Below the pieces are notes generated by a model. The model searched no databases. It had not been told where the DNA came from and saw only the letters and a program-made list of their open reading frames with translations. Both the position numbers and the translations under genes were made by a program. A stretch of 50,329 nucleotides of DNA from a virus: positions 1 to 50,329 of IMG/VR virus record IMGVR_UViG_3300031607_000005; one strand, 5' to 3'. Shown piece after piece: positions 13,556 to 50,141 of the stretch. The stretch's first letter is position 1; the number at the start of each line of letters is the position of its first letter.

Positions 13556-16500
13556 TATTTGTTTTTGTTTTCAGATTGTTGTTTCGCGTGTCTAGCTCTT
13601 GCTTCCTTCATGAACCAACCTTCACCTTTTGCGTCATCTTTCGCAAGCTTTTTAGCAAGTGCTTTATTAGCCGCGTCATTTTTCACTGATTTAAGGACTT
13701 GGACTTCAGTAATACGATTGTAATGTGAAGCGTAACGTTCATTGATAAAGTCGAACTGCTTTCTGGACATGTCTATCTCAACGCTCTTACCTATAGTAAG
13801 GTCATCAAATCTGAATTTCTTACTAGGCTTGCCTCCAATAGGTGCTTGAGTGCTGAATGGGAACTCTTGATTGTATTTGTCAGATCGTTGATCCTCTGGC
13901 ACTACCTTAGCGTCTTGTGGGTCTAGCATCCAATCTAGCATGTGACCTACTACTGGAACTTTCTTTTGGAAGTATTTACCACGTTCAACTTTTTCTCCGA
14001 ATTGACCACGCTTTGCGGTTGGTGCATTAGGGTTCTTAGACATGATTGCGTTATCGTCTGCACTAGGTATCACCTCGTATAGTATCATTCTAGCTAATCC
14101 AGCCTTTCCCTTCTCATCTAATCCAGTTTGATCCCTGTATTTGTTAGAGTCTTTGATAGGCTGGCGGAATAGATTAGGGATAATAAATGTAGCTATGTTT
14201 CTAGCTACCACTGAATTCCCTGACTTCCTCTCGTTTGCAATCATTATTGCGTCATTCAGACTGCTAAACATGGTCTTGTTCTTTAATGCGCCATAAATAG
14301 TATTGGCTGCCAAATCTTGAATTACGTCTCCTACATCAACTTTACCCTTTATGAGATTCTTTAAGTTCCTGCCTAAGTCGACAGTTGTGGATAAGGATGT
14401 GGCTAATGGGTCAATATTACTGTAGTCAAATGTCTTCTCACCTACTCTTATTCGTAGTCCACCCATGCCTTTTCCTCTGGCTAATGAGTTTTTGGCTTGA
14501 GATCCTTCACCTCCCTGATCATCATTTCCGCTAATTAGAATGAATTTCTCATCATCATCGTCATCACCTTCCCCCCAGCTAAGTACCATAGCACCCATTG
14601 CGAAGGCTACAATCTGCTCACTTAATTTAGTGATTGCGTGGGCGGCGTCCTCATCAGGGTTTCCGCGATTCATTGCAGCGTATCTAGCTACTTTTGCTGC
14701 CGCTATTAAGGCTACTAGTGGGTTGGGAACACGGATTAATGCCGCTCTGAATATGCTCATTATAACATTATTGAATGGTATTAGTCCCACGCGTAATCCT
14801 GATCCTAATATTCTAGCTGATTGGAATCCAAATTTACCACCTAGACCACTTACCTCTGAGTGTGCTTTAGCATACTTATCAAGGTCTTTTAGACCTTTGT
14901 CAGCTAATGAGGCTACAGCAGATGCAAAGTCTGCCACAAGTGCTAATACATCGCCATCTTTAGACGCTCTTTTAGCCGCGCTGAACATGTCAGGGGCTCT
15001 ATCCATGAATACGGACTCAGTTGCTTTTGTTCCCGCCGCTTTCCATGAGTCTGATCCTTCTGTGTGGGTTTCTATTTTAATAAAGTCCTTTAGATCTTGA
15101 CCTTTAAGACCTTGTTTCCTCCCTTCACGTAATGCTAGTGCAGTTACCTCCATGCCACCAACTGTGTAGCGAACGAAGTCATCTACACCCATGTTGAATC
15201 TCAGGATTGCCCTAGCAGACTTTCCTAGTTTTAGTTCAGTAGATTTCTTCTTACCACCGAAAATGCCTAGTATAGTCGGTCTTTTTAGCCCTTTATCTCC
15301 AATAAACTTATTTCCAATAAAATTATTTCTAATTAACCTTGGAATACCTGTCTTCTGGGCTAACTTGCTCTTTAATGCACTAGATAGAGCTTCATCTACA
15401 TAGTCAAGAACGTGACCCATTTGATAACCTCTTGTATCTTCACTTGTGTCACCAGATATTTGATCAGCGGCATCACCACCATCAATGAACTTCTGGAAGT
15501 GTGCGCGTTCTACATCATATGCTATTAGGGCTTGTTGTGCGGCTCTTGGAAGCCATTCTTTCATTCCAATAGCTAGATACTTGTATTCTTCTACCCTTGC
15601 TGAATCTGGGTTCTTCAGAAACTCATTCATGACCACTTCTGGTAATCTTTCAAACAGCATTTTGTATCCTGCAAATGGTATGGATAGAGCGTTTGCAGCC
15701 CATGTCTTGAGTGAGAATACGTTAGCATACCATGTTCCTACAGCCTTTGTTAAAAAGTCTTCATCTAGCTTCTCTAGTGATCTAGCTACGCCCATTACAT
15801 CACGGGGGTCAAGTATGTTGAATGTTTTAGCTCTGTTCTTTCCTCCACGGAATGACGTCTCTACGATGTCTGCAACTGCTTTGTCTAGTTCTGCTTCAGT
15901 TGGATTTTCTGGCATCTTAGATGGTTGGCGACCAGCTCTGTAGTCTTCCATCGTATCTACGCGGAATCCTTGTTCTGCGAGCTTCCTAGCTTGCTTTTTA
16001 GCCTCTACGTTAAACTTAGCTAGAACTTTATCTTGAGATCCACCGCTTACACCCAACACATCCTTGATTTCTTGAGGGCTTTTACCTTCACGCCACATCT
16101 TAACTAGAGCCTGCTGTTTTTCAGTTAACCCTTTGAGTGCGTCTGTGTCTGCCTGAGTGTCTACCGCTAGACCTTCGTTCTTGGAGTTGAATACCTCTGC
16201 TATGTCGTATCCGTCTTTCTCAAGTTGCTTCTTAGCTTTGTCGTATCGCTTCCCTTGGAACTCAGCTAACTCTTTATAGTATGCTTCCCTGTTCTCAGGT
16301 GGAACTTTTCCGTATCCACTAGATGTCCCGCCGTCTTTATCGTTTTTAGCACCATGCTTATCTTTTAAAGCCCTAACCATCTCATTTGATGGGGTCTGGA
16401 TGAATATGCCTAATGAATACGCCGCACGTTGCTGTGGACTCTGGAATGGGTCTTGCATTGCTCTCATTATACGAGCAAATGTAGCCCTTCCCTCTGTCTG

Positions 16501-19500
16501 GGTGAATCCTAATACAGAAGCACGAACAACAGCATCTCTGTCACCACTAGCCATAGCCGCTTGTGTTTCATTGGCTGTTACACGGGTTGCGGCTATGATG
16601 AACGCTGGAGTAGGCTGGACTGTAGAAGTTCCGTTAGCAAACTCAAACATGGTCTGCTTCATCCAATCTACGTCTTGCATCAATAGGTCAGCATCAGCGT
16701 TCCATTCAGCTATTGTTTCTGGTGTGGCTGATTTATTGTAAATCTCAATAGATATGTCATTGAAGTTTCTAACGCTCTGATCTCCTGATATGTTTGCACG
16801 TTTAGGGTTACTTGGGACTACCTTAGTTCCATCAGGGTTACGCTCATCCTTGTCTGCTATGAGTTGTTCAAACTCCTCATTGGTGACGTTCATTCGTGAT
16901 GCCGCCGCTCTACCTGCTGGTGAGTCTGATGGGTCTGTCTGGAAGTTTGGTGTCTGTTCTGGGTTTAAGGAGTCTTTGACTCTAGTTCTTAGATTACTTG
17001 GTTGAGTGGCTGGTATATCACTTTGGAATAGTGGAACTCCTCCTCTTACTGACCGCTCTAACTCAGGGGTGATTTCTACCATCCATCCAGAGTCGTTATT
17101 AACGGTCATGTTAGTATTCTTCTCTACTTTACCTCCCATTGGCTTGATTAGCTTCTGGACTGCTTTAGGTAGCATTACATCGTAGAATCCTTTCATCCCT
17201 TCTCCACCTAACTCTAAGTTATATCTTTCGTTATGGACTTCACCTTCTGACCAACCAATCCACTTCTTCCCGCTATTAACAGCTTCTAGTAATGCACGTT
17301 TAAACATTTGAACTCCCCAGTCTTTACGGTATGGGGCGTCTGGAACACGGTCATCAAATCTCTGGTTAGCTAAAGTTTCGATCATCTCAGCCTTGTAGTC
17401 AGCAGGGTTAGCATTGTCTGATAAACCAAAGTATTCAATTATTTCAGCGTCAGTTGGATTGGTTTCACTTCCTGTATATCCTTTCTTCCTCCCGTCTTGG
17501 TGACGGTCAGATTGTATCTCTTCAATGAGTGTTCCTTCTCCTATTGAAGACGATTTATCTTTGAGCCGCATGTGTGCTACATAGTTAGGTGATCTAAAGT
17601 GACTTGATGTGTATTCTGATGAACCTTCCTTCTCTTCAATTATGTAATTTTGATTCATGCTATCTTCCAGTGTCGCAAATTTACTGAAATCATTGATTTC
17701 AGCTATGGATACTTTTTGGACACCAATTCCTCCTGAGACGCCAACAACATTAACCCCTTCATTTATTAGTTTTTTAGCTTTTTCAATATCAAAGGTATTA
17801 AGTGTAGGGGGGGTTTCTGGCTTAGTAAGAACTACCTCTCGGTAATTAGTCCCGCCTTCTGATGAGTATTCTTCGTATTTAGGCTCAAATCCAGACGACT
17901 CTGGTATCTCATTAGAATCCCTGTCTTCTAGTTCAGAAAGTAAGTTTTCATCATTTTGATTTATTGATCTACCAGAAGATACTTCTTCAAAGACCACAGA
18001 TCCTTCACCTTTAAGGTAATTCATGATGTCTGATTTGAGTATTGATTTACTCTCTTGGCTATCTAACCACTCCATTACTCCTGACCACTTAACTTCTTCT
18101 GGCTTTAGTCCAGCCTTATTTATTAATCCTTTGATCTGGTTTACTGCCGCCTTCTTTCCTTGTATCTTCTGATCTAGGGTAGTTGCAAGTTTGGAGTATA
18201 GTTTAGCTTCGTTGTTATTAGCGTCACTCTGGAAATTCATCTGATCACCCTCATTCTTTACGTTGAATGGGACTGCTGGTTGCTCATATACTGCGTAGAA
18301 CTTACCGTCAAACTCTTGGACATAGATACCACCATGTTTGGGGACTAGTGATGTTCTGATTGCTTTGGCTATTCTCTCACTCACGCCTTTCTGCTTATTC
18401 CCATTCACTGTAGGGGGGATGACTACTCCATCTCTAAGGACTGTCTTTCCGTCACCATCTAGCTTGTTAGTAGCTCTCCATCGTTTAGCGTAAAATGCAG
18501 TTTCTCTAGTTGAGGCTGTTCTTTCGGTATTAAATAGCTCATCTAGCACTCCTTTCACAGAGTCGTTGTATTGCATAGATCCTGCTGTCTCACCTGCGGT
18601 AGAGTTGTAGTATTGAGCCGCACCTTCTGAAAGGATGTCAACTGATGCGCGTATGTTATTAGGCGCTACTCCTCTGCGTAGATACTTCTCCATCGCTTCT
18701 GCTAGTAGTTCCTTTCTGTTTCCACCCTTCTCTACTCCGTCTTTGATCCATCCTTGAAGGCTGTCCATACCGCTTTGACCTAGTGCATCTGCTAGTAGTG
18801 ATCTTCCCGTAGTAGGGTTCTTCATTGTCTCTATGACATGGATGAACTCATGGGCTGGGCTGGTAGCGTTTGCTTTCCTGCTGAACTGTACTGTTTGCTT
18901 GGCGATGTTGGCTTTAGTTTTACCACCTGCACCCATTTGAAGGGCGTTTACTGACTTGTCACCTCTACGGGCTTTCATGTCAGATGCTACATCGTCATAG
19001 ATTTCAGCAATCTTAGTGTCAATTGCATCCATTTTATTGTAAATATTGTCAACTACCTTCTTCATCTCAGCGTTAGCCCAGTCATTTTGCTGTTCTTCTG
19101 TGAGTTTAGCCTTCTGATCTGGGTCTTGCTTGGTGAGGTAGTCCTGTAGGGTTATACCTTGTATCTCAGTAATCAGTTCTGATCTGGTTTTGAGTAGTGG
19201 GGTAGCCTCTGATGCCTTAGCCTTCTCAGTGGCATTTGCTGCTTTCTCTATGAGTGATGTGTTGGCGTCTAGGAGTAATCCAAAGTATATCTTGTTCTTG
19301 GTGTTCTTGAGTAGCTTTCTGAACATGCCTTCGTTGGAGATCATCTGTCTCATCTTACGGGCTACGGATGATGTGCTACCTGTAACTGATTCTTGTGATG
19401 CGGTATCTGATACTTCTGCTCCTAGTTTGATATTAGCAAATTTAATAGCATCAGCATGGACTGCTCTTCCTTTTTCGTCTAGGTTGTTACGTAAGTCTGT

Positions 19501-22500
19501 AACGAATGCAGATAAGTCACCAGAAGATTGTGATAGTTGGGATACGTCAATAGCGGCAAATATGCTCTCAGCACTATAACCACTCTTGGCGGCTACTGCT
19601 TTCACTAGTGCCACCACTAGGTCTATTGAAGCATCTACTTGTTTAGGTGTCTGTGACTCAGCTATGATTGACTCAGCACTTGCGGATAGCATGTTCTTAC
19701 GCATTTCACCCTCGAACTTAGTAGCGTTGAGGTTAATAGCCTCCTCCAATGATCTTGTTAGCTCCTTAGATCCGTCTGGAAGAGTGATTTCATAGACATC
19801 ATTTTTCATTGGTCTAATACCTTTAGGTAGAGTAGCGTCACTCATCTTAGTCACTCTGGTAGCTGGTAGGGCTATTCCAAGGTTGTCTAGTGCTTGTGGG
19901 GTTACGGACTCCTTGATCATTGCCATAGCGAAGTCCTCATACATCTTGAGGTTTTGCTTTACGCTGTCTGGTGATTTTTTGATTAGCATCCTAATGTTGC
20001 TAACGAACTTTCGGAAGAACTCTAATAGTGGTTTGATGAACTTTCTGTCTCCACCACGGATATGCTTCTTTAGTGTGGCGCTGAATATCTTCTCGCTAAC
20101 TAGGTTGGTTAGCATAAATCTAGTTGCCGATAATGGGGTCATTTCTAAACTTCCGCTCATCTTCCTAAATCTTATTGCGACTATCTTCTGTAGTTGAGTA
20201 GGCATTGACGCCCAGATAGTCTCTGCTTCTGAATCAGTAATCGACTTGTTTGATGCTTGTGTGGCTAGTGCTTCTGCAATAGCCATTTGAGTTTCCGCTT
20301 TGCCCATTCCCGTTTTAAGAGTGAGTGACCCGTCATCGTTGATTCTGAAGTCATCGGTGATGTTTTCTTCAACTACATCTGTGAACATTCCTTCCAATGC
20401 TTCTTGATTATCTACTACAGCCTCAGTCTTTACAGGTGCTGGTTTAGCTTTGGTGGGTTTAGATGCGTTATCGTCTTGGAAGGGTATTTCACCTGCCTCA
20501 TTATCTGTGTCATCCTTTTTAGAAGGTGTCTTAGCTTTAGGTGTATTGTTTTGTTTATTTGGTGTAGATGCAGATTTTGCAATTAATTCACCTTCTCGTT
20601 TTTTTACATCTATTTGTGCTTCACTAATTTTCTTAGCTAACAATCTAGTTTCAAATTTAGCACCACTTTGCGGGTTTTTACTGTTGATCCTAGCAGATTT
20701 AAGTAGAGATAAAGCTAATTCATAATGGTTTATTTTTTTATCAAGTTCGTCTGATTCGCCTCTTCTGGTTAGAGCTTTTTTAAGGTCGTTTTTTAGTTTT
20801 AGTTTTAGTTTTGATTCACTAGATAGCTCTTCTATAAAAGACTCTATTTGACTTACTTTTGCGTTACTGAATTTCTTTCTTACTTTATCGCGTTTTGTTT
20901 TAGATAATGATCTGGATGATAAGTATCTACTCACATCTGCTGAATCTAAAAGAAAATCATTTATTACATTTTCGTGAAAATCAGGGTATTGTTTTATTTT
21001 TTCTAATGTCTCTTTAGGTATGTAACTAATATCCTTCTCTACAGGTTTGTCAGGTTTGTTAATCTTATCTGATTCTGATTCTGCTTTAGCTTTAGGTGTG
21101 GTATTTAATTTCTTTACCTGTCCATTAATAATGTTTTTCTGAACCAATTCTGAAAACTTATTAAGATCAACGCCTACGGGTTCTGTATTCTGAATAGCTT
21201 CTATTTGTGAATCTGTTACATTTTCAAGACCGCCTAAATCAAACGCTACGCCATAAACTTTACCGTCCCTTATTTCTAGTCCGAAATTCTTACCTCCATT
21301 ATCTGTCTCAATTATCTGCTCTTTTAAGACGGGGTTACCGTCCATTACTTCTTGCATTAGCTCTTTAGGCACATTTCCTACATCGCTCGCCTCTACTGCG
21401 GTAGGTGATTGAAGCTGTAACACTAAGGCTACTTTCCCTTCATACTTCATGCTTGTAACATTTGTGTCAGTAATAAAGGGCGTAGTGCCGACTCTCTCCA
21501 TAAGGGCATTATCTATCTGAACGTCACTTGCGTCTTGTGTGACTTTCATGAAGTCGCCTGTTCTAGTGTTGCGGAATACCATTGAGATGCCGTTTCTGAT
21601 GAACTCAACTTCCGATGCAGGGATTCCTGCCCATTCTGCAAATGTAGATTCAAGTTCTTTCTTGGACTCAGTATCAACAACACCTTTATTGTTCGTAAAG
21701 GCTCTATCTCCCACTGCTTGATAACCATCTTTATCATTACCAACCTTAGATTCTAACACTTTGTAGAGATTCTGCGTCTTATCAAAAAATTCAGTGTCCT
21801 CAGTTAATTCAACTTCCCCTTTATTTGATAAAGGTTCTTTTTTGGTTTCGGGCTTACCAATTTTATCAGTATTTTTTGATTTTTGTTTGTTAGATATTTG
21901 TATCTCATTTAATGATTTAATCACCAAGTCTGCTGTAGATTTAAGTTCAGCGTTGGCTTTTGTTAGATTAGAAATATAATTACTAATATCCTTAAACACC
22001 TTAATTAGTTCTTTTAGTAATAACCTTCCAGAGTGTTCCACACCTGCTTCTTCCGTGAGGTATCCTAGTATGGATTTATCCTTCTGAACAACCATGCGAA
22101 TAACCTCATGCCCTCCTGAGTATGGAGTTAGCCCTTGTTCTTTGTTCTTTGGGTTATTAGCGTAGTAAACTTCTGTTACTTTGGTTTTTATTTCATCAGT
22201 AAGATTATTCCATATTGATGTGACTTGTTCATTTGTGATAACTTCACCCGCTACAAAATGAATTAATTCTTCATTAAGTGTCGCTTTTAACCATTTTTTA
22301 CCGCTGACATCAGAACCAATCATCATTGAGTCTATTAAAGTCTTTGGGTTAATTTGTAACGTCCCATCAATGTAAGATGCGGGGGCATCTGTTTGATTGG
22401 AGTCAACTATTTTAACTCCATTTGGAAACAAATTAGAGGCGTCCTCTATTTCTGCCTTAACCGTATCCCACTTTTTTTGTGATTTTGGGTCTGAGAACTT

Positions 22501-25500
22501 ATGGTTTAGTTTAGATGAATCATCCTTTTTGGTAGGTGTTTCAGATTTAGGCGTGGTCTTTTCTTCTGCTGTCTCTTTAGGAGTTTCAGCTTTAGGGGTA
22601 GGTTGTGATCCGATCTTTTCAATAGAGTTGAAATTTACCGTTTCATTGCTTTTATCTGGAATGTGGTCTGTAATAGCTTTATTGCCAGCTTCTTTCTGTG
22701 AGTTCGCTTTTACTACAACAAATCTAACTTTTCCACCTTCCTGTGATATAGCTACCTTGAATTTACCTGTTGGGGCGGTCTTCTTCTTCGCTGGCTTCCC
22801 TCCTGTGGGAGCGGTTTTCTTGGGTGTTCTAGGTGTAAGCTCAAATCCACCACCCTCTACTGGGGTTACTTTGTGGGTTTTGATGTGCTTATTATCCTTA
22901 TTGTAAATGTTGGCGGATTTCTTAGTGCTGAATACCTCGTTATTATTAAACGTATTGCGGATGGTCTTTGGCTTCTCAGTAGATTTAGTCTCAGTAGGTT
23001 TAGCTTCTGCCTTCTTAACCTTGGTTGCGGGTATATCTCCACCAGTTTCTTCATTTACTGCCTCGGCATCAGCTTTATCTTTCTCAAGAACCTCATTGAT
23101 CTTAGCGCGTTGCTGAGTCTCATTCATTGGGACTAGACCATCCGCTGCATCTGGGAAGTCCCTAGCTAGTTGGTTGATTGCGGTGTCTGTTATAACTACC
23201 TCACCACCAACCATATCAAAACCTGCTGAACCGTCTGCTAGGTCAGCCTTGACAGCTTCTCGTTCAGCCTTTGGCAGGGACTCAAGGTTAGCACCGTTAG
23301 CAATCTTGATTATACCAATATTCCTGTTCGCGTCTTGAACCGCTTGCATACCATCATTGGTCATCTGCTCATCATTAGTCTTCTGACCTAACTTAATATC
23401 CGCATTAGCATCATTCTTCTGGATAGTAATTGCTGATTGAGTCTCAATGGCTGTTTTTAGATTCTTGGCTACAACATCTGGATTGGTAGAGCCTTTTGAC
23501 GGGGTATTATTAACCAATAGAAATCCTGCTTCAATCTGTTCTTTTGAAAATGTTCCTTTCTTACCAAATGCCTGAGTTAGTGCTTCACCTGCCATGTTTG
23601 GGTCAGATAGGTTTTTAACATTTACCCCTGTAGATGTAAATGATCTAATTGAACCTACTCCACCTAATACCGCACCGACTTTAAATGCCTCCCATGATCT
23701 TTCTAGGGCTTGCTCAAATGATGCTCCATTAAGGGTGAACTCCTGTAGAAATTGATCTGTCATCTCTTCTGTTCCTTCATGAGCCATAGGTCTTAATACG
23801 TCTATGATCCCTTTTCTAAGTAACACCATCCTTTGAGAGGTTGACATCGCCTTGTTGGTTGAGTTTTTCAAGAAATCCTTGAATGTAGCGCCTCTGATTA
23901 CAGAACCTGACTTAAATATCCTGTCTATACCAGTCATGCCGAATGATAACATTACTGATCCAGTTATAGCTCCCGCGACCATGGCTCTACCTCTCACGTT
24001 TTCACTATTCCCTATTTCATCTTTTTCTTCTCTGGTGAGTTCACTGCCTTTTAGTTCTTCAGCTTTATCTATAGCCTCAGTGTAGTATTGACCATATGTT
24101 ATACCAGCAGATTGAATGGCTCCTAATCCCGCTGAAGTTCTAAAGCTTATTTTAGGAATCATCTTTGAAATGACCTCTTTAGTTGCAAACCTCTTAAACG
24201 CTCCTTTAGCGGCTAACGCTTTAACTCCTAATCCACCAGCCATACCACCACCTATGGTTATTGCCATGGACTGAGCTTCTTCAAGGATTACGTCAGTAAC
24301 CCATGTTCCGAATCCACCAGAATCCGTGTTAATATCTCTGGACTCTCTTTTTTTATTGCCTTTTCTTACAATAAATTCATTTGTGTCTCTAACATATGGG
24401 TTATCAGAAATAATGGATATTCCACCCCATATCATGCTGGAAGCTTTGTTAAGACCAAGGTGAGAAGAGTATCCAGCACGTTTCCAGAAGTCATCTCCGT
24501 CTGAGAAAGATATTTGACCTTCTCCTTCTGTGTTGTATTTTTCAATGAACTCGTTATACTTAGCCCCTGCCGTTCTGCCTATCCAAGTATTAGCCCAAGG
24601 TTGATTCTGTTGTTCTGGAGTTAAATGTTCGTTTTCAAATGTTTCACCAGATGTCTTGGATTCTTCTATCCTCATGTTCTCCCACTCATCGTATGAGGGC
24701 ATGTTATCATTGGCTTCTGATGCTCTTCTAATTCTAGGTAAGTTCATGGCTACAACATTGGCTTGATGTTGCTCAAGAGCCGCTGGTGTAGTCCTTCTTT
24801 GCTTTTCGTAATGAGGTGCATTAGTCTCATTGATTAGCCTCTTATAGTAATCTTTATTAGCGGTATTTAGCGCTGGGTTGATTAGGATTCTTCCATTACT
24901 TAAAACTCTACTTTCCTCGTTATCATCATAATCACCATGTTTGAGCTGGAAGTCTGAATACATTCTGATCATGTCTTCATCACTGTATCCGCCTTTGTCT
25001 TGCATTTGGTGTAAGAACTCAGCCGTTCCAGTAGCTCCGAACTGTCTTAATCCAGCGACTACTCCTTGCCGTGTTATATCACCAATGTTACCCATAGCAT
25101 CCCACATTTTTCCTGGAACATTATAATCGTGACGGTTTTTATCTATGGTTTTACCACCAGCGTAGGCTTCTACTATCCATTTTCCGTTAATCTTCTCTAG
25201 TTTGTCCCCGTTTGCATATACGTCTTTAGCACCTTCTCCAGTGTTTCTTATTAAAGTGTCGTAGATCTCATCAGATCCTGCGTCCATCTTCTTAGCTTCA
25301 ATTCCGAACTCTTGGTGTAATTCTTTGTATCCTTTGACAACCTCTTCTGGGGTATAGTCCCCATTTTTGACTTTATCTCTAAAGACCATGGCTTTCTTAT
25401 GAGTTTTAGGTGCGTAGTCCTTGAAGGTTTCGGCGGCTGAAAAGATATTATCTGTAAACTCTTTTTTAGCTTTCTTGATCTCCTTAGCATATTCCTCGTT

Positions 25501-26541
25501 GTGAGTTCCAATAACGTCATTAATAAATGGTCTTAGTAGTGCTAAAGACTCTTTCTCTACATCCATTACCTCATCAAACCTTACGTTATCATCATAATTT
25601 TGCTGAATGTATTGAATGTGTGATTTGCTTAGTGCGTTGTCTCTTGATTTTGTCGCCTCTGCGATTTGATCTGGTGTCCCGCCTTTTTTGCGCCACTCTT
25701 CAAAGCTGGATCTTATTCCTGTATCTCTTTCTAGCCTAGATTGTAGGTTAGATTGTGTAGATACGTTTCTAGCCTTGGTGCTTTCATTGAATCTGAATTG
25801 TCTTTTGTTGTATGAGTCTATGAACTCAACTCGTTCCTTTGGGTCTTCTGGGACTGCCTCGGGCATCTCAAATCCAGCAGGATACCTATTTGCGTTCTTA
25901 GATGCGTTCCACTCCTTATCAGCCTCTTCAAACTTGGCTGAATTATTGTCATGTAGGGAAACTTGTTCACGTAAGGCATCGCGTCCTAATCTAAGCTTTT
26001 CTTCGTCCTCCTTGTATTTTTTCTCATCAAACTTTTCACCACCAGCGGCGGCTAGTTGTTCGTTAGCCGCATGTTCACTCTCATATTGGGCTAGTTTTTC
26101 TCCTAGCGCCTCTCTCTTAGAAGGAGACAGCATACTTTCTTTGAGCCTAGATTTAACACCAGCTTGGTAAGCCACGTTAGCCTTAGCTTCAAGCTGCCTT
26201 ATGTTCTCATCAGCTTCTTTTTTACGTGTTTCAGTAAGGTGAGTATTTTGTTCATCTGTCAAACCTGACTTGAGTTCACCACCTTCTCCCTCATAAAGGT
26301 AGTCATCGTATCCACCTGCTTTAGCCGCTGTCTTAGTTAGCTTGTTTCTAGCGGTCATTGACTGAGCCGCCGCTCTAGCTGATTCACGTTTCTCTTTAGC
26401 GCGTTCAGCCTCAATGGAAGCTGTGATTCTATTAGCTTGTGCTTCAGCTTGCCTAACATTCCTACTGTAGGTATCAACTGATGAAGAGAAATCCTTTCTA
26501 GGATCGGTAACGGGTGCGTCTGCGTAAGGGTTTCTTGCCAT
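13555..26541 (-). CDS. Giant polyvalent virion protein (4328 residues)
   Basis: One uninterrupted frame of 13 kb. Visible modules: helical, charged N-terminus (1-600); glycine-rich hydrophobic stretches near 750-780, 855-875 and 950-965; Lys/Thr/Pro linkers (1090-1340); a zincin-like module with NEELIH (about 1423-1428); a possible kinase-like segment near 1680-1770; a second zincin-like helical copy near 2050-2210; an intact HEFIH metallopeptidase motif at 2564-2568; the phage large-polyvalent-protein domain with LIEEIQSDRHQDGRKKGY (about 3000) and DWGVQMFKRALLEAV (about 3075); and a C-terminus with hydrophobic helices near 3940-3985 followed by DDDDDE. Relatives are packaged and injected with DNA to modify or protect in the host. 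Which modules are active is unknown. Confidence 0.8.
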   Translation of the reverse strand: MARNPYADAPVTDPRKDFSSSVDTYSRNVRQAEAQANRITASIEAERAKEKRESARAAAQSMTARNKLTKTAAKAGGYDDYLYEGEGGELKSGLTDEQNTHLTETRKKEADENIRQLEAKANVAYQAGVKSRLKESMLSPSKREALGEKLAQYESEHAANEQLAAAGGEKFDEKKYKEDEEKLRLGRDALREQVSLHDNNSAKFEEADKEWNASKNANRYPAGFEMPEAVPEDPKERVEFIDSYNKRQFRFNESTKARNVSTQSNLQSRLERDTGIRSSFEEWRKKGGTPDQIAEATKSRDNALSKSHIQYIQQNYDDNVRFDEVMDVEKESLALLRPFINDVIGTHNEEYAKEIKKAKKEFTDNIFSAAETFKDYAPKTHKKAMVFRDKVKNGDYTPEEVVKGYKELHQEFGIEAKKMDAGSDEIYDTLIRNTGEGAKDVYANGDKLEKINGKWIVEAYAGGKTIDKNRHDYNVPGKMWDAMGNIGDITRQGVVAGLRQFGATGTAEFLHQMQDKGGYSDEDMIRMYSDFQLKHGDYDDNEESRVLSNGRILINPALNTANKDYYKRLINETNAPHYEKQRRTTPAALEQHQANVVAMNLPRIRRASEANDNMPSYDEWENMRIEESKTSGETFENEHLTPEQQNQPWANTWIGRTAGAKYNEFIEKYNTEGEGQISFSDGDDFWKRAGYSSHLGLNKASSMIWGGISIISDNPYVRDTNEFIVRKGNKKRESRDINTDSGGFGTWVTDVILEEAQSMAITIGGGMAGGLGVKALAAKGAFKRFATKEVISKMIPKISFRTSAGLGAIQSAGITYGQYYTEAIDKAEELKGSELTREEKDEIGNSENVRGRAMVAGAITGSVMLSFGMTGIDRIFKSGSVIRGATFKDFLKNSTNKAMSTSQRMVLLRKGIIDVLRPMAHEGTEEMTDQFLQEFTLNGASFEQALERSWEAFKVGAVLGGVGSIRSFTSTGVNVKNLSDPNMAGEALTQAFGKKGTFSKEQIEAGFLLVNNTPSKGSTNPDVVAKNLKTAIETQSAITIQKNDANADIKLGQKTNDEQMTNDGMQAVQDANRNIGIIKIANGANLESLPKAEREAVKADLADGSAGFDMVGGEVVITDTAINQLARDFPDAADGLVPMNETQQRAKINEVLEKDKADAEAVNEETGGDIPATKVKKAEAKPTETKSTEKPKTIRNTFNNNEVFSTKKSANIYNKDNKHIKTHKVTPVEGGGFELTPRTPKKTAPTGGKPAKKKTAPTGKFKVAISQEGGKVRFVVVKANSQKEAGNKAITDHIPDKSNETVNFNSIEKIGSQPTPKAETPKETAEEKTTPKSETPTKKDDSSKLNHKFSDPKSQKKWDTVKAEIEDASNLFPNGVKIVDSNQTDAPASYIDGTLQINPKTLIDSMMIGSDVSGKKWLKATLNEELIHFVAGEVITNEQVTSIWNNLTDEIKTKVTEVYYANNPKNKEQGLTPYSGGHEVIRMVVQKDKSILGYLTEEAGVEHSGRLLLKELIKVFKDISNYISNLTKANAELKSTADLVIKSLNEIQISNKQKSKNTDKIGKPETKKEPLSNKGEVELTEDTEFFDKTQNLYKVLESKVGNDKDGYQAVGDRAFTNNKGVVDTESKKELESTFAEWAGIPASEVEFIRNGISMVFRNTRTGDFMKVTQDASDVQIDNALMERVGTTPFITDTNVTSMKYEGKVALVLQLQSPTAVEASDVGNVPKELMQEVMDGNPVLKEQIIETDNGGKNFGLEIRDGKVYGVAFDLGGLENVTDSQIEAIQNTEPVGVDLNKFSELVQKNIINGQVKKLNTTPKAKAESESDKINKPDKPVEKDISYIPKETLEKIKQYPDFHENVINDFLLDSADVSRYLSSRSLSKTKRDKVRKKFSNAKVSQIESFIEELSSESKLKLKLKNDLKKALTRRGESDELDKKINHYELALSLLKSARINSKNPQSGAKFETRLLAKKISEAQIDVKKREGELIAKSASTPNKQNNTPKAKTPSKKDDTDNEAGEIPFQDDNASKPTKAKPAPVKTEAVVDNQEALEGMFTDVVEENITDDFRINDDGSLTLKTGMGKAETQMAIAEALATQASNKSITDSEAETIWASMPTQLQKIVAIRFRKMSGSLEMTPLSATRFMLTNLVSEKIFSATLKKHIRGGDRKFIKPLLEFFRKFVSNIRMLIKKSPDSVKQNLKMYEDFAMAMIKESVTPQALDNLGIALPATRVTKMSDATLPKGIRPMKNDVYEITLPDGSKELTRSLEEAINLNATKFEGEMRKNMLSASAESIIAESQTPKQVDASIDLVVALVKAVAAKSGYSAESIFAAIDVSQLSQSSGDLSAFVTDLRNNLDEKGRAVHADAIKFANIKLGAEVSDTASQESVTGSTSSVARKMRQMISNEGMFRKLLKNTKNKIYFGLLLDANTSLIEKAANATEKAKASEATPLLKTRSELITEIQGITLQDYLTKQDPDQKAKLTEEQQNDWANAEMKKVVDNIYNKMDAIDTKIAEIYDDVASDMKARRGDKSVNALQMGAGGKTKANIAKQTVQFSRKANATSPAHEFIHVIETMKNPTTGRSLLADALGQSGMDSLQGWIKDGVEKGGNRKELLAEAMEKYLRRGVAPNNIRASVDILSEGAAQYYNSTAGETAGSMQYNDSVKGVLDELFNTERTASTRETAFYAKRWRATNKLDGDGKTVLRDGVVIPPTVNGNKQKGVSERIAKAIRTSLVPKHGGIYVQEFDGKFYAVYEQPAVPFNVKNEGDQMNFQSDANNNEAKLYSKLATTLDQKIQGKKAAVNQIKGLINKAGLKPEEVKWSGVMEWLDSQESKSILKSDIMNYLKGEGSVVFEEVSSGRSINQNDENLLSELEDRDSNEIPESSGFEPKYEEYSSEGGTNYREVVLTKPETPPTLNTFDIEKAKKLINEGVNVVGVSGGIGVQKVSIAEINDFSKFATLEDSMNQNYIIEEKEGSSEYTSSHFRSPNYVAHMRLKDKSSSIGEGTLIEEIQSDRHQDGRKKGYTGSETNPTDAEIIEYFGLSDNANPADYKAEMIETLANQRFDDRVPDAPYRKDWGVQMFKRALLEAVNSGKKWIGWSEGEVHNERYNLELGGEGMKGFYDVMLPKAVQKLIKPMGGKVEKNTNMTVNNDSGWMVEITPELERSVRGGVPLFQSDIPATQPSNLRTRVKDSLNPEQTPNFQTDPSDSPAGRAAASRMNVTNEEFEQLIADKDERNPDGTKVVPSNPKRANISGDQSVRNFNDISIEIYNKSATPETIAEWNADADLLMQDVDWMKQTMFEFANGTSTVQPTPAFIIAATRVTANETQAAMASGDRDAVVRASVLGFTQTEGRATFARIMRAMQDPFQSPQQRAAYSLGIFIQTPSNEMVRALKDKHGAKNDKDGGTSSGYGKVPPENREAYYKELAEFQGKRYDKAKKQLEKDGYDIAEVFNSKNEGLAVDTQADTDALKGLTEKQQALVKMWREGKSPQEIKDVLGVSGGSQDKVLAKFNVEAKKQARKLAEQGFRVDTMEDYRAGRQPSKMPENPTEAELDKAVADIVETSFRGGKNRAKTFNILDPRDVMGVARSLEKLDEDFLTKAVGTWYANVFSLKTWAANALSIPFAGYKMLFERLPEVVMNEFLKNPDSARVEEYKYLAIGMKEWLPRAAQQALIAYDVERAHFQKFIDGGDAADQISGDTSEDTRGYQMGHVLDYVDEALSSALKSKLAQKTGIPRLIRNNFIGNKFIGDKGLKRPTILGIFGGKKKSTELKLGKSARAILRFNMGVDDFVRYTVGGMEVTALALREGRKQGLKGQDLKDFIKIETHTEGSDSWKAAGTKATESVFMDRAPDMFSAAKRASKDGDVLALVADFASAVASLADKGLKDLDKYAKAHSEVSGLGGKFGFQSARILGSGLRVGLIPFNNVIMSIFRAALIRVPNPLVALIAAAKVARYAAMNRGNPDEDAAHAITKLSEQIVAFAMGAMVLSWGEGDDDDDEKFILISGNDDQGGEGSQAKNSLARGKGMGGLRIRVGEKTFDYSNIDPLATSLSTTVDLGRNLKNLIKGKVDVGDVIQDLAANTIYGALKNKTMFSSLNDAIMIANERKSGNSVVARNIATFIIPNLFRQPIKDSNKYRDQTGLDEKGKAGLARMILYEVIPSADDNAIMSKNPNAPTAKRGQFGEKVERGKYFQKKVPVVGHMLDWMLDPQDAKVVPEDQRSDKYNQEFPFSTQAPIGGKPSKKFRFDDLTIGKSVEIDMSRKQFDFINERYASHYNRITEVQVLKSVKNDAANKALAKKLAKDDAKGEGWFMKEARARHAKQQSENKNK

Positions 26542-27979: not shown

Positions 27980-28053
27980 AATTTCAAGTGGGGTAAGTTT
28001 AACTTGCAAGAACTATTGCAATAATTTAAGGTGATTGCAACCACTAATATAAC
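27980..28053. promoter_or_regulatory. Bidirectional control region at the strand switch
   Basis: Gap between the late (minus) and early/middle (plus) halves. TTGCAA at 28004-28009, 28016-28021 and 28035-28040; the latter two are 19 bases apart as in the 9141-9232 region. On the minus strand they form TTGCAA-17-AATAGT ahead of the late genes. No canonical -10 is seen for the plus gene. Likely operator or promoter elements coordinating both directions. Confidence 0.55.
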
Positions 28054-29033: not shown

Positions 29034-29333
29034 ATGCCAAAAACTAAATACTGGGATACAGAAGAAGATGTCGAATTTGTGCTACCTAAGTGGTTACGCG
29101 GTGGTGGACATGTCACAAGACAAGATAACTACACACTAGACAAAGTTACTATCGGTAATGCTGTGAGGAAACGCAGGAAAGCCTCTGGATTATCTCTTAG
29201 AGCTTGTGCTAAGTGGGTAGGGATCAGCCATACCCACATGAGTAACCTAGAGACAGGTAAGAAGGCGTGGAGCGCCAGTAGGTTGCAAGATGTAACTAAT
29301 GTCCTATCAATGCAGGAAAGATCAACAAACTAA
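29034..29333 (+). CDS. XRE-family helix-turn-helix regulator
   Basis: 99 residues. A 35-residue N-terminal extension (YWDTEEDVEFVLPKWLRGGG) precedes a classical HTH_3 domain: IGNAVRKRRKASGLSLRACA then KWVGISHTHMSNLETGKKAW. The SLRACAKWVGISHTHMSNLE part is the two-helix DNA reader. Early position suggests a repressor or timing switch of the early region; binding sites may include the TTGCAA palindromes, which is inference. Confidence 0.75.
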   Translation: MPKTKYWDTEEDVEFVLPKWLRGGGHVTRQDNYTLDKVTIGNAVRKRRKASGLSLRACAKWVGISHTHMSNLETGKKAWSASRLQDVTNVLSMQERSTN

Positions 29334-32472: not shown

Positions 32473-32483
32473 CTCTATATAGG

Positions 32484-32511
32484 TTGACACTCTTCTCCTT
32501 AAATATATAAA
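32484..32511 (+). promoter_or_regulatory. Sigma70-like promoter
   Basis: TTGACA (32484-32489), 16-base spacer, TATAAA (32506-32511). Downstream is AGGAGG and a five-codon frame (Met-Ala-Gly-Val-Pro-stop), then non-coding sequence, so it may drive an RNA rather than a protein, or an origin primer. Confidence 0.6.
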
Positions 32512-32727
32512 AAATATTACAGAAAAGGAGGCACTTACCATGGCAGGAGTCCCTTAAAAGGTATGTGAGATAATTGGAGTGGGGTCAGTCTATAGAGGGA
32601 ATAAAAAAAGGCGTGAGATACTACAGGCGTGTCTGGTCTATAGAGGCGTTTGTCTTCTCGGACACCATCGAGCGAGGACACGTTCCTTTCGGGGTTCCCT
32701 ACTGCTCATGTGGTGGAAAAACTATTA

Positions 32728-32820
32728 TTGCATGCTGTAGAATTGCAATTGCAACACGCCCCCCCTACCATATTGCAACGGTGTAGTGATGGCTCGTAGT
32801 ATATTGCAATGTGATTGCAT
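32728..32820. repeat. Cluster of TTGCAA/TTGCAT motifs
   Basis: TTGCAA at 32743, 32749, 32773 and 32804; TTGCAT at 32728 and 32815. Six hits in 93 bases is far above expectation. The same palindrome sits in the two late control regions, so one factor may bind both promoters and this origin-like region. Confidence 0.6.
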
Positions 32821-32863
32821 GGGCTGGCTGTTGTGTGCTGGTGTCTCTACTATGTGACGGTGA

Positions 32864-32948
32864 TGCATGTCATGTGCTGGTGTATCGTGATGCATGTGCT
32901 GGTGTATCGTGCTGCATGTGCTGGTGTATCGTGCTGCATGTGATGATG
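32864..32948. repeat. 22-base tandem repeats (iteron-like)
   Basis: Three full direct copies of a 22-base unit beginning CATGTGCTGGTGTATCG at 32871, 32893 and 32915 (one A/C difference at position 20), flanked by partial units. Direct, in-phase, two helical turns: the layout of replication-initiator iterons. Confidence 0.7.
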
Positions 32949-33977
32949 ATAGTTGATTGCATGGCATGCGGTGCTACCTGGTAGCGTATGGCGTGCATGT
33001 TTGCCTTGTCTTCACCCCGTGGGCAGAGTAGCCTTTACCTTACATAACTCACTGATAACACAGTATGATGGAAGAGCACCGTTTTTAGCACCCTATCGAA
33101 GCATATAGGCTCAGACCTACTGGGATCATGATAGCACGGCACCAAGCAGGGGCGATGCAGGCACAATGAGCGCGCATTACACCTCATCTATGATCCATTA
33201 CAGCCGTATAGGTGGCGCATTATGTATGGTTTAGTGTCGCATTACGCATAAATGACACGTTGCTATAGTATGCGTTTTATACATATTGTCTAATCATTGA
33301 CGTTACGTTCAGCCCTTACCACGTATAGCTTATAGCCTGCTTTAGGCTTGGATATATACAATTTACTTACTAGGGCGGATTGAGTGATTGAATGAATGAT
33401 GGTGTTTATAGTAAAGATTGTTGTAATGAAGCCATGCTGATGAAACGAAAAGCTATAGGGTTGTTTTGTATCTATTACTATCTATTGAATGGTTTGTCTA
33501 AGATGACGCTTGGCTAGGTTAGGGCTTGGCGGTCAGGTGGTGGCTGGGTGGTGGGAGTTGGCTGGCTTAGGTGGTGGGCTGGGAGGGATTAGAGCTTAGA
33601 TCGTGTTGCTGTTATTGGCTATCTCCATGCTTGTTTTTGTTGTGTGTTGTAGTGTTGTTTACTGGTCTCTATGAGTAGGGATTAGGGCATGGAAAGGCGC
33701 GGTCATTTCCTTGGTTTGGCGGCTGGCTTAGTGGTCTATTTGTAGGTGTAAAATGTCTCTCCCACAGGAGGGAAGGGAATGTGTTTTTTATGTCTGTTAG
33801 ATGGTGGTGGTCTACTTGGTTGCCACTAATTGCAATTTTTGTTTTGTTGTGTCTTAGTGTGTTATGACTTAAATGTAATTAATCTGTAAATAGGTGTTGC
33901 TAAAAGACAATCAATAGCCTAGTCTGTTTTTAATGAGATGCACAACGCCTCTCTTAACCATAGCAAAACACAATATT

Positions 33978-35340: not shown

Positions 35341-35420
35341 TTGCAATCCTTCTCTCTCCCTCAGGAGGGAAAGGGGTTGCTTGTTCCACTCAGTTTACAT
35401 TTAGGTAGATTGAGCGGAGC
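35341..35420 (+). promoter_or_regulatory. Structured leader, copy 2 (duplicated element)
   Basis: Two hairpins. The first: outer arms GCAATCCTT and AAGGGGTTGC with inner TCCCT-CAGG-AGGGA. The second (35383-35420): GTTCCACTCAGTTTAC with GTAGATTGAGCGGAGC, loop ATTTAG, an A-C mismatch at position 6. Ends 31 bases before the ATG at 35451. The whole roughly 115-base block is repeated at 35773-35882. Confidence 0.65.
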
Positions 35421-36219: not shown

Positions 36220-37764
36220 ATGAAATACAACGTAACACACTCCCGTAAATTAATAGGGCGGATAGCTAAAAGCGCGGATGATGACACGCCATGGGGAAGA
36301 CTCAACGTCTCTAGTGTCACCACTGGGAGCGATGGCTGGAACAGGCAACGAATCAATCCAATCATGGATGCGATAGCCAATCATTACGGCATTGAGTCCA
36401 CCGATGAGACGATTGATAAGGTGAGCAGGTGGATGGATGAGGAGACACCTGTAGCTGATCAACTAAGTTATCCTAACCCTATTGACTGGGAAGAGTTATT
36501 CAGCCAGTCACCGCCCGTCATAGTAGATTTTAATGAGGTGATGCCATGGGATGAACCTATACCACAACCGCCCGCCGACTCTTTCAAGTCCAAACTCGAA
36601 CGTATGAGACATGAGAAGGTCGTCATTGAAAGGGAGATAAAGCATGAATCAAGCGCGCTCAGTGAGATTCCAATATTGAGAAAAGAAATCCTAGACCTTG
36701 CAAAAAACATAGGAAGTGAATTATCAGAAATAAAAAAGCAGAATGATTCAAATGTAAATCAGACAGAATCAAACGCTGTAATAGATGTCTCTAGTATTAA
36801 AGGAGTTGTGGCACAATCGATTAAAGATTTATATGATAGTTCGACCGATCAAGAAAAGGCAGAGCTGTTAAAGAAAGCTAATGAATTGCCTAACCTCTAC
36901 CCGATTGACTCAACGTTCATCGCACCTGACTGGTTTGACCGTCTCAAGGTTTGGATCAATGCAGGTGTTCACGTTGCAATCGGTGGATCAACAGGGGCGG
37001 GCAAGACATTTCCAGCTAAACAAGCGTGTGCATCCCTTGGACTACCAGCCAAGACAATCGCAATGAATGGAGGGATTGACGCTGAAACATTGGTTGCTAT
37101 CCCTCACCTAAAAGACGGCACAAGCAGTTATGTCGATGGATTCTTAACCCATGCCATGCGCCACGGTTACTGCCTAATCCTAGACGAAGCTGATTCTTTA
37201 AGACAGGAGGAGGCTTTAGTTCTCAACGATGCGATTGAGTCAAGGATGATCACAGTCCCGTTCACTGGTGAAGTGGTCAAAGCATCGGAGGGATTTGTCG
37301 TCATCTTCACTTCTAATTCGTTAGGTGATGAGTTAGGTCTATACAATCGGGAAGGGTTTGACGCTTCATTACTTAACCGTTGCCGTATGGTCTTAGCTAA
37401 TCCTCTTTCAGTAGAGCAGGAGGTCGCGATACTAACGCTTATCAAGTCACCATCGGGACAATCAATCTCAGATACAGATGCTAGGCTATTAGCTCAGTGG
37501 GCAAAGATAGCCAGAACCGCACACTTTGGAAATCAAGGTCAAGATCCCGTGCTTAAAACTAACCCATCGACACGTGTGCTAGTCAACACGGTAGCTGAAT
37601 GGCTAGGCTTCAATCCAGAGACAAACAAGACGATGCCAGCCTATAAAGACGATCCTGCTTTTAAATCAGATATTCGTAAGGCTTTGAAATATACTTTTGC
37701 AAGTTGTCTAAATGATGACGAGCGCACCTGCCTAAAGAGCTTGGACTTATGGGCATGGGAATAA
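36220..37764 (+). CDS. MoxR/CobS-like AAA+ ATPase
   Basis: 514 residues. About 230 N-terminal residues are variable and partly coiled-coil (SKLERMRHEKVVIEREIKHE). The AAA+ core has Walker A GGSTGAGKT (about 255-263), Walker B CLILDEAD (about 318-325), a sensor VVIFTSNSLGD (about 361) and NRCRMVL for the arginine finger region, wording typical of MoxR/CobS/CbbQ ATPases. Such ATPases remodel protein complexes with a VWA partner, which here is encoded 465 bases downstream. Acts in the cytoplasm; substrate unknown. Confidence 0.85.
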   Translation: MKYNVTHSRKLIGRIAKSADDDTPWGRLNVSSVTTGSDGWNRQRINPIMDAIANHYGIESTDETIDKVSRWMDEETPVADQLSYPNPIDWEELFSQSPPVIVDFNEVMPWDEPIPQPPADSFKSKLERMRHEKVVIEREIKHESSALSEIPILRKEILDLAKNIGSELSEIKKQNDSNVNQTESNAVIDVSSIKGVVAQSIKDLYDSSTDQEKAELLKKANELPNLYPIDSTFIAPDWFDRLKVWINAGVHVAIGGSTGAGKTFPAKQACASLGLPAKTIAMNGGIDAETLVAIPHLKDGTSSYVDGFLTHAMRHGYCLILDEADSLRQEEALVLNDAIESRMITVPFTGEVVKASEGFVVIFTSNSLGDELGLYNREGFDASLLNRCRMVLANPLSVEQEVAILTLIKSPSGQSISDTDARLLAQWAKIARTAHFGNQGQDPVLKTNPSTRVLVNTVAEWLGFNPETNKTMPAYKDDPAFKSDIRKALKYTFASCLNDDERTCLKSLDLWAWE

Positions 37765-43914: not shown

Positions 43915-43938
43915 CTAACTCACGGGTATAGGTATATT
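43911..43938 (+). promoter_or_regulatory. Sigma70-like promoter for a short transcript
   Basis: TTGACT (43911-43916), 16-base spacer, TATATT (43933-43938). Same 16-base geometry as the promoter at 32484. Start expected near 43945, and a strong terminator follows about 100 bases on. Confidence 0.6.
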
Positions 43939-43944
43939 GAAGGA

Positions 43945-44052
43945 GTAATTGGTTAGACATTGATTGCAAAGCTTTTTCATAATAGAGCGTGTTATAAAAA
44001 AACACCTTAGCCCCGTAGAATTCGTCTAACCATTCTACGGGGCTTTCTTTTT
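43945..44052 (+). ncRNA. Candidate small RNA of about 105 nt
   Basis: Promoter upstream, no open frame, and a Rho-independent terminator at 44009-44052. The 5' part has TGGTTAGAC (about 43950), perfectly complementary over nine bases to GTCTAACCA in the terminator loop (about 44024-44032). This could make a pseudoknot, or an attenuation switch if RNA polymerase reads through. A TTGCAA lies inside. Confidence 0.55.
44009..44052 (+). terminator. Strong Rho-independent terminator
   Basis: AGCCCCGTAGAAT (44009-44021) and ATTCTACGGGGCT (44032-44044), 13 perfect pairs, ten-base loop, then TTCTTTTT. A-run upstream (43996-44002) gives a U-tract on the other strand too, so it may work in both directions. 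Confidence 0.85.
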
Positions 44053-44059
44053 ATACGAG

Positions 44060-44411
44060 ATCAATAGACCGTCTTAGACTGAGAGCCTAGCCAAAATTAA
44101 TTAGTTACACTCCTAACCAACGGCAGGTGTATTCGGGATTAAGAAGGGTTTTTATCAGGGTCGTAGGTGTGGACAAAGAATCAGCACCTACATAAAAAAT
44201 ACGCCAGTTGAGTAATTTCTTCTGGGGCTTTGATATACTGAGAGGAGTTAGTGAGTAATACCCGCCTCGTTATTAGGTATATTACCTACGTTAAGTCGTA
44301 GGGTAAGGAAGATTGGATATGAATTGTGCCAGTTAATACCTTGGATGGGTTCGCTGAAAAGCGGACTTGTCTGAAAAATTAAGAGAATGATTGATTAAGT
44401 TAATACCAAGG
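44060..44411 (+). ncRNA. Possible structured RNA region
   Basis: 350 bases without a credible frame but with several helices: GTAGGTG/CACCTAC; TTACCTACG with CGTAGGGTAA; and GTTCGCT-GAAA-AGCGGAC (about 44349-44366), a seven-pair hairpin with a GNRA tetraloop, on the plus strand only. A direct repeat AGTTAATACC-tt/aa-GGATG (about 44335 and 44401) differs so that CCTTGG can pair with CCAAGG around that hairpin. I cannot match it to a known RNA class. Confidence 0.4.
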
Positions 44412-44522
44412 ATGAGTAACAGGATAACAAGTGAACTACAGTATGACCTCGATAGAGGTTATCTGTCCAATGGAATGCAATACAACAACCAAGAGAACGT
44501 TCCCACAGGAGGGAGCTACTAA
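44412..44522 (+). CDS. 36-residue possible peptide
   Basis: ATG at 44412 to TAA at 44520-44522; begins MSNRITSELQYDLDRGYLSN and ends NVPTGGSY. The end is encoded by a dispersed-repeat copy, giving the same VPTGGS as in the adaptor protein. The next gene starts seven bases later. Real coding is uncertain. Confidence 0.35.
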   Translation: MSNRITSELQYDLDRGYLSNGMQYNNQENVPTGGSY

Positions 44523-44528
44523 ATAGAT

Positions 44529-44708
44529 ATGAATACATTCCAAAGATTAATTAAAGAAGAGATAAAGTGCGATATATGTGGTGGAGAAACCATGATCGGA
44601 CTATACGGTGGAGGCTGGGATAACGACCGACTAATATGCGGTGATAAGGACTGCCAAGCTGAGATAGAATTCCCAACAAGCACGGAACACGAAGAACCAA
44701 ACAACTAA
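44529..44708 (+). CDS. 59-residue zinc-ribbon protein
   Basis: ATG at 44529. MNTFQRLIKEEIKCDICGGE then GGGWDNDRLICGDKDCQAEI: a CxxC and a C-x4-C pair about 20 residues apart, one likely zinc site. Short acidic tail. Followed by a 160-base gap that holds only a 15-codon fragment (MKTITELQAWKAGSL, 44713) that may be a gene remnant. Confidence 0.55.
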   Translation: MNTFQRLIKEEIKCDICGGETMIGLYGGGWDNDRLICGDKDCQAEIEFPTSTEHEEPNN

Positions 44709-49243: not shown

Positions 49244-49375
49244 ACGAACGCCCTTAGCATAGCCACCGCTGACACAAAAACATATGAATAAAACCAATAC
49301 ACTACTAGAGCCTAACGACTCCAAAACCCCGCCAGACCTCAGCCGTCAGCGGTTGGATACTGCGTGTTGTTCTCC
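49243..49375 (+). other. attC-like site 7
   Basis: R'' AACGAAC (49243-49249), L'' GCATAGCCACCGCTGAC (49257-49273), L' GTCAGCGGTTGGATACTGC (49345-49363), spacer GTGTT, core GTTCTCC (49369-49375). Sixteen pairs, one mismatch, two extrahelical bases. R'' exactly matches the cassette 7 start GTTCGTT. Loop carries the ATG used by the methyltransferase. Confidence 0.8.
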
Positions 49376-50141
49376 TTTTTTGGAGGGAGTGCAACTAATG
49401 AAAGGCGATTGCCTAGAAAAAATGAAGGAAATTCCAGATGGATCAGTTGACATGATTCTGACAGATCCGCCTTACGGGACGACCGCTTGCAAGTGGGATT
49501 CGATTATACCACTAGACGCAATGTGGAAGCAACTGAAGCGAATTATCAAGCCTAATGGTGCGATTGTGATGACCGCAAGCCAACCGTTCACCTCAACCTT
49601 GATTTCTAGCAATATGAAAATGTTCAGGCAATCCCAAGTCTGGGATAAGAAGATGCCAACGGGGCACTTGAATGCTAAAAAGAAAATCCTTAGTAGGCAT
49701 GAAGATATTGTAATGTTTTCGGATTCAAAGTTTGGGCACTTCACATACAACCCGCAGAAAACAAAAGGGAAACTCCGCAATAAAACACCCAAAAGGAAGG
49801 CGGATGACTATGAGGGCAGGGTGTATGGTAAAGTGAAACACGGTGGAGACAACTTCAACGCTGATTATTATCCCACCTCGATTCTCGAATTGAGCAACGC
49901 CAACCAAAGAGGCAAAGTCCACCCCACCCAAAAACCTGTTGCCCTCATGGAATACCTGATTAAAACCTACACCAACGAAGGCGAAACCGTCCTTGATTTC
50001 ACGATGGGGAGTGGGACAACTGGCGTTGCTTGTGTTAATACGGGTAGAAATTTCATAGGCATTGAACTCGATGAAGACTATTTCCATATAGCATGTAAAC
50101 GGATAGAACGTGAGACCAGCCAAGCGACTTTGAACCTTTAG
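49284..50141 (+). CDS. Cassette 8: DNA methyltransferase (beta-class N6A/N4C)
   Basis: 285 residues from ATG 49284. Residues 1-29 (MNKTNTLLEPN to DTACC) are encoded by site 7. The enzyme proper starts VQLMKGDCLEKMKEIPDGSV; an ATG at 49398 with GGAGG upstream is a plausible cassette-internal start (247 residues). Motif IV DPPYG at 61-65, a target region, then HPTQKPVALMEYL and SAM-binding motif I LDFTMGSGTTG at about 238: DPPY-first order fits beta-class enzymes. Probably protects phage DNA or modifies host sites. No cognate nuclease nearby. Confidence 0.85.
   Translation: MNKTNTLLEPNDSKTPPDLSRQRLDTACCSPFLEGVQLMKGDCLEKMKEIPDGSVDMILTDPPYGTTACKWDSIIPLDAMWKQLKRIIKPNGAIVMTASQPFTSTLISSNMKMFRQSQVWDKKMPTGHLNAKKKILSRHEDIVMFSDSKFGHFTYNPQKTKGKLRNKTPKRKADDYEGRVYGKVKHGGDNFNADYYPTSILELSNANQRGKVHPTQKPVALMEYLIKTYTNEGETVLDFTMGSGTTGVACVNTGRNFIGIELDEDYFHIACKRIERETSQATLNL

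Follow-up and report, generated by a model that had tools for sequence, protein, structure and literature searches.

Origins of replication in phages and phage-related elements have been traced to non-coding regions of quite different design. In PLE, the satellite of the Vibrio phage ICP1, one repeat is an iteron that is bound by the initiator and required for replication (PMC7145576), and in extrachromosomal mycobacteriophage prophages, RNA-based origins lie beside parABS and act in the prophage state (PMC7157519). A different kind of sequence signal is the HIP1 element of cyanobacteria (GCGATCGC), a highly iterated palindrome that goes with matching methyltransferases (PMC4390886). Here we describe a non-coding locus of 1.5 kb in a linear viral contig of 50,329 bases (IMG/VR record IMGVR_UViG_3300031607_000005, positions 1 to 50,329; this whole stretch is called the window below), which shares features with each of these systems. 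As in PLE, direct repeats lie within non-coding DNA of a phage-related element (PMC7145576), but the window has no recognised RepA_N or other initiator gene, the repeats are not kept in relatives, and the locus is known from sequence alone. With the RNA-based mycobacteriophage origins (PMC7157519) and the R-loop origins of the ColE1 type, it has in common an untranslated, probably transcribed region proposed for replication without an adjacent Rep protein; unlike the mycobacteriophage origins, the window shows no parABS, and the transcription of its locus is predicted.

The window carries no end repeats. Its bases 1-28,009 hold chiefly minus-strand structural genes (an SU10-like portal and adaptor, a major head protein, a tail fibre and a very long ORF), and plus-strand genes fill 28,054-50,141, including an XRE regulator, an AAA_5 ATPase, an SNF2-type helicase and a DNA methyltransferase (Table 1). 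DNA-level relatives were found in the phage collection neither by megablast of 24 kb nor by blastn of the locus; tblastn of the portal and major capsid proteins against that collection was equally without a match, as was the search of genome_contigs for a relative. Related contigs were retrieved from IMG/VR by means of the portal, AAA and SNF2 proteins. The phage belongs to a family not previously described, whose portal is SU10-like. A Shine-Dalgarno sequence is absent before all 33 window gene starts checked; A/T-rich leaders stand in its place, which may hint at the host group.

Table 1. Positions of the locus, its motifs and the genes and regions discussed in the text (window coordinates unless a contig is named).
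Feature	Position	Strand	Remarks
Whole non-coding locus	32473-33977		From plus-strand ORF stop (32472) to ATG of next ORF (33978)
Near-consensus sigma70-type promoter, TTGACA-16-TATAAA	32484-32511	+	Left edge; 11/12 matches
GGAGTCCC motif	32546-32553	+	Upstream of TTGCAA cluster; common to all four relatives (2-3 copies each)
GTCTATAGAGG copy 1	32588-32598	+	Exact direct repeat
GTCTATAGAGG copy 2	32636-32646	+	Exact direct repeat
TTGCAA cluster	32743-32809		Starts 32743, 32749, 32773, 32804; steps 6, 24, 31
22-bp direct repeat, iteron-like	32871-32942	+	3.3 copies of CATGTGCTGGTGTATCGTGCTG; 98% matches
GCGCATTA copy 1	33172-33179	+	Two copies in locus
GCGCATTA copy 2	33215-33222	+	Diverged 16-nt repeat 22 bp further (33212/33234)
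G+T-rich tract	33501-33680	+	76% G+T; G2-type runs, no G3 quadruplex motif
TCTCTCCCACAGGAGGGAA element	33756-33774	+	Recurs between later genes at 35353, 35785, 37790
TTGCAA followed by T tract	33830-33839	+	Relatives: TTGCAT(7) before conserved TTGACA
Related element, TTGCAA x3	28004-28040		Early/late divergent intergenic region
4,328-aa ORF	13555-26541	-	Adjoins SU10-like portal; kept in relatives; no Pfam match
XRE/HTH_31 regulator	29034-29333	+	41-57% identity to relatives' homologues; candidate binder
AAA_5 (CobS/MoxR-like) ATPase	36220-37764	+	Heads operon downstream of locus in relatives
N6_N4 DNA methyltransferase	49284-50141	+	Window only, among 14 contigs checked
Syntenic non-coding region	L031:7043-8605
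Syntenic non-coding region	L032:7990-9582	-
Syntenic non-coding region	L034:1-1563	-
Syntenic non-coding region	L042:8150-9472
parS-like palindrome	L031:7486-7501; L032:9119-9134; L034:1098-1113		Once per locus
~570-aa protein	L031:17599-19302; L033:8408-10102 (-); L042:17681-19288; L054:8992-10737		Upstream of primase in relatives
TerL (phrog_2)	G018:38356-39393	-

An earlier note on this DNA had proposed the locus as a replication origin, and most of the features that it named are indeed present. The stretch is without genes, as claimed: none of its ORFs is longer than 82 codons, the six main ones have no PHROG match, and no protein-family match was obtained for the 1.5-kb locus; a coding explanation was therefore dropped. 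The 22-base direct repeats form the top-scoring tandem array of the whole window, and the left-edge promoter is one of two equally good plus-strand matches in 50 kb, where 0-2 would be expected by chance; promoters of the Bacteroidota type do not occur in the locus. The repeat of GCGCATTA exists as well, as a weak and unremarkable pair. Of the G-rich tract, the one-sidedness held up, the plus strand being G+T-rich, but the canonical G-quadruplex (four G3 runs, loops up to 7) is absent from both strands, and enrichment is confined to G2 tracts, which make up 96 nt where 16 would be expected. The TTGCAA/TTGCAT cluster is likewise real without being peculiar to the locus. The locus as a whole holds five TTGCAA and three TTGCAT, in 500 dinucleotide shuffles of it the TTGCAA count is 0.69 and never as high as five, and a grouping of four of the window's TTGCAA within 61 bp anywhere has P=0.001; yet the hexamer occurs 44 times in the window against 18.6 expected.

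Allowing one mismatch, the genome-wide count of GTCTATAGAGG is not significant. The TCTCTCCCACAGGAGGGAA-type element, written as TCTCTCCC[T/A]CAGGAGGGAA, matches six times against none expected, on the plus strand at the four positions of Table 1 and on the minus strand at 11380 and 22796; two of its copies sit within a 59-nt intergenic repeat beginning ATCACTTGCAATCC or ATGACTTGCAATCC. CTATAG might be read as a T7-like promoter, but TCTATAGAGG within one mismatch does not rise above chance level, and this reading was dropped. So was a leader minigene at 32540 (AGGAGG, ATG and a few codons), because its ATG is missing from the relatives and a Shine-Dalgarno sequence precedes none of the 33 window starts. 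Elsewhere in the window, a second non-coding stretch of ~0.7 kb at 43915-44630 holds a terminator-like inverted repeat near 44010-44050, and a 36-nt direct repeat of the GCGCCGATGAGGTCGAATACTGCGATTTGTTCGCCT family occurs six times between 46675 and 49376, with 64-97% identity to the reference copy.

A key finding of the comparison is that four related contigs have a gene-free region of 1.3-1.6 kb in the matching position, with the first early genes on one side and the AAA-ATPase/SNF2 operon on the other, even though the neighbouring genes share only ~40-48% protein identity with those of the window. In G006 and G017, homologues of the window genes at 28054, 28749 and 29034 lie upstream of the locus, and AAA, VWA/peptidase-like and SNF2 genes lie downstream; G018 (L042) has the same gene order, and G014 shows the upstream part of the synteny as far as its contig end. 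Common to all five loci is a GGAGTC motif followed, at offsets of ~247-332, by a cluster of at least three TTGCAA. Calculated from each genome's own TTGCAA rate, the probability that any 31-bp stretch of the locus contains three copies is 0.0004 in the window, 0.005 in G006, 0.018 in G017 and 0.004 in G018. The coding-strand bias of G over C also has the same sign in all five loci, two of which are stored reversed. Taken together, the shared place and length, the order of GGAGTC and TTGCAA and the sign of the G bias make us highly confident that this non-coding region is genuine, conserved and cis-acting. The loci of G006, G014 and G017 align well with one another, and their 3' half is well conserved. 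Local alignment of the window locus with the relatives barely exceeds that of shuffled sequence, and its homology is therefore one of position and motif order rather than overall similarity.

What this region does is less certain. The leading single reading is still that of a replication origin, which we hold tentatively, at somewhat short of even confidence. In its favour are the recurrence of so long a region at one place in five phages whose genomes are otherwise gene-packed, the motif order with its improbable clusters, the common sign of the G bias, the left-edge promoter and the window's strongest tandem array. In addition, the locus stands directly upstream of the AAA/SNF2 operon; in the more complete relatives, among them G017 and G018, this operon extends to a Toprim primase and DnaB. 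In the mechanism that we infer, the locus would be an untranslated cis-acting control region whose likeliest job is starting replication. The left-edge promoter would send a transcript rightward across the G+T-rich stretch, and a phage DNA-binding protein would occupy the TTGCAA palindromes and, in the window lineage, perhaps the 22-bp repeats as well. Once bound, this protein may open the DNA or expose an R-loop, at which the phage primase and DnaB helicase would load.

An origin is thus a plausible interpretation, and we cannot tell whether it is correct, as no origin-specific test was positive. The cumulative GC-skew, which the earlier note had put forward as a check, has its minimum not at the locus but at 27.9 kb, 4.5 kb away, at the switch in transcription strand. 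The minima of G006 and G017 fall at the equivalent strand switch; because the skew tracks gene orientation in the relatives too, it argues neither for nor against an origin. Skew at fourfold-degenerate sites is -0.20 to the left of the locus and -0.11 to the right, a change that is not significant with so few sites. No perfect DnaA box (TTWTNCACA) occurs in the locus, and sites with one mismatch number four there and 77 in the window. The most AT-rich 60 bp of the locus reach 77% AT, a value equalled at 0.8% of window positions. With its 3.3 copies of 22 bp, the tandem array has the form expected of iterons (at least three direct repeats of ~18-22 bp), which would also be kept in related replicons; no equivalent is present in G006, G014, G017 or G018, and the G018 locus has other repeats, of 11/21 bp. 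PHROG and Pfam scans of most proteins of the incomplete window contig, many of them without a family, recognised no initiator family. A further point against an origin is that TTGCAA clusters occur at another junction as well, and that one is clearly a region of divergent promoters.

A region devoted to transcription control fits nearly as well, although we consider it somewhat doubtful as the full explanation. Under this interpretation, the locus would hold promoters and operators of the middle or replication operon, an array of TTGCAA operator half-sites for a phage regulator (e.g. XRE) and a long leader, and would have no direct role in replication. The distribution of TTGCAA in the window is consistent with such a function: its density is 2.5 per kb in non-coding DNA (15 copies in 6,000 bases) against ~0.65 per kb in coding DNA, and the ten non-coding copies beyond the locus still amount to ~2.2 per kb between genes. 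Moreover, a pair of TTGCAA 30-31 bp apart marks the early/late divergent junction of G003, G006, G007, G014, G017 and the window, and the same spacing recurs within the locus, where the copies at 32743, 32773 and 32804 are 30 and 31 bp apart. The left-edge promoter, the conserved XRE gene and the repetition of an intergenic element of the locus among later genes point in the same direction. On the other hand, 1.3-1.6 kb is long for mere operators and promoters, and a regulatory region of that size serving transcription alone would be unusual; TTGCAA in the relatives is also dense inside genes, unlike an operator.

The most surprising result of this analysis goes beyond the original claim of an origin: TTGCAA is a palindrome iterated across the phage family beyond codon usage, and in this it resembles HIP1. 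It reaches 2-4 per kb in the relatives and ranks first among ~4,000 hexamers for over-representation in nearly all contigs of the family, and third in the window. When synonymous codons are shuffled within genes, its z-score is 7-22 in the relatives and 4.5 in the window. The bases flanking it show little preference, and in distant phages that share only SNF2-like helicases it is not enriched to the top. Since TTGCAA is iterated genome-wide, the cluster at the locus is part of a signal spread over the whole phage genome and does not speak specifically for an origin. As with HIP1, a short palindrome is over-represented throughout the genome, in and between genes, beyond what composition and codon usage explain (PMC4390886). 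In contrast to HIP1, TTGCAA belongs to a phage family, is 6 bp long and AT-rich, and is not accompanied by a matching methyltransferase in the TTGCAA-rich relatives, as judged by two Pfam families and one PHROG. Among 14 contigs, which are incomplete, phrog_67 and PF01555 were found in the window only and PF00145 in none; a methyltransferase as the reader of TTGCAA is unsupported, the sole one detected sitting in the TTGCAA-poor window. We found no report of such a palindrome in phages in the literature searched.

TTGCAA is least dense in the window phage, with few copies inside genes and clusters retained between them. L004, the contig whose portal is nearest to that of the window (97%), contains a single copy in 5.5 kb, from which it follows that the enrichment has faded in the window lineage. 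A protein of ~570 aa and of no known family, encoded upstream of the primase in relatives, has no detectable homologue in the window, where TTGCAA density is lowest; its AlphaFold model is poor (pLDDT 58). It is tempting to speculate, though we rate the chance as fairly low, that throughout the genomes of this family TTGCAA signals to a protein dedicated to it, of phage or host origin, that this protein loads at the cluster of the locus, so that origin firing, gene control or genome marking would be tied to a single motif, and that the window lineage is losing the system.

Another proposal, which we regard as improbable, is that a protein reading TTGCAA genome-wide, for compaction, packaging, partition or the marking of self-DNA, loads or nucleates at the locus, the cluster being its strongest site. 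The family-wide iteration and the clusters of at least three copies at the locus of five phages would suit such a role. Chromosomal parS sites are of the TGTTCCACGTGGAACA type, and the loci of G006, G014 and G017 each hold one similar palindrome, TGTTCCAC[A/G]TGGAACA, within 1-2 mismatches, with none elsewhere in the scanned loci. Against this, the window combines the lowest TTGCAA density with the lack of a parS-like site (no 16-bp palindrome near TGTTCCACGTGGAACA within 3 mismatches), and G018 also lacks one. Furthermore, the sole TerL found, that of G018, is ~18 kb from the AAA gene bordering the locus, phrog_2 detected none in the window, and the binder of TTGCAA is still only putative.

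More improbable again is that the locus encodes a long functional non-coding RNA. The left-edge promoter, the G+T-rich plus strand and the conserved 3' half within the G006/G014/G017 group would be compatible with one, but Rfam gave no match in the window or in three relatives, almost nothing can be aligned between window and relatives, and the folding of the window locus does not point to a structured RNA, its mean z-scores being near 0 (0.07 plus, 0.10 minus; a weak 0 to -0.8 in the relatives). A functionless spacer left by the decay of early genes, which the poor conservation between window and relatives might suggest, is very hard to reconcile with a place and length alike in five phages, a motif order that is kept and a skewed, non-random composition.

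If the locus is an origin of replication, it would open a way to study how replication is controlled in this environmental phage family, which has no close match in the phage collection searched. A palindrome that is iterated family-wide and clustered at two conserved control loci could, in addition, reveal a phage counterpart of HIP1, whose function is debated.
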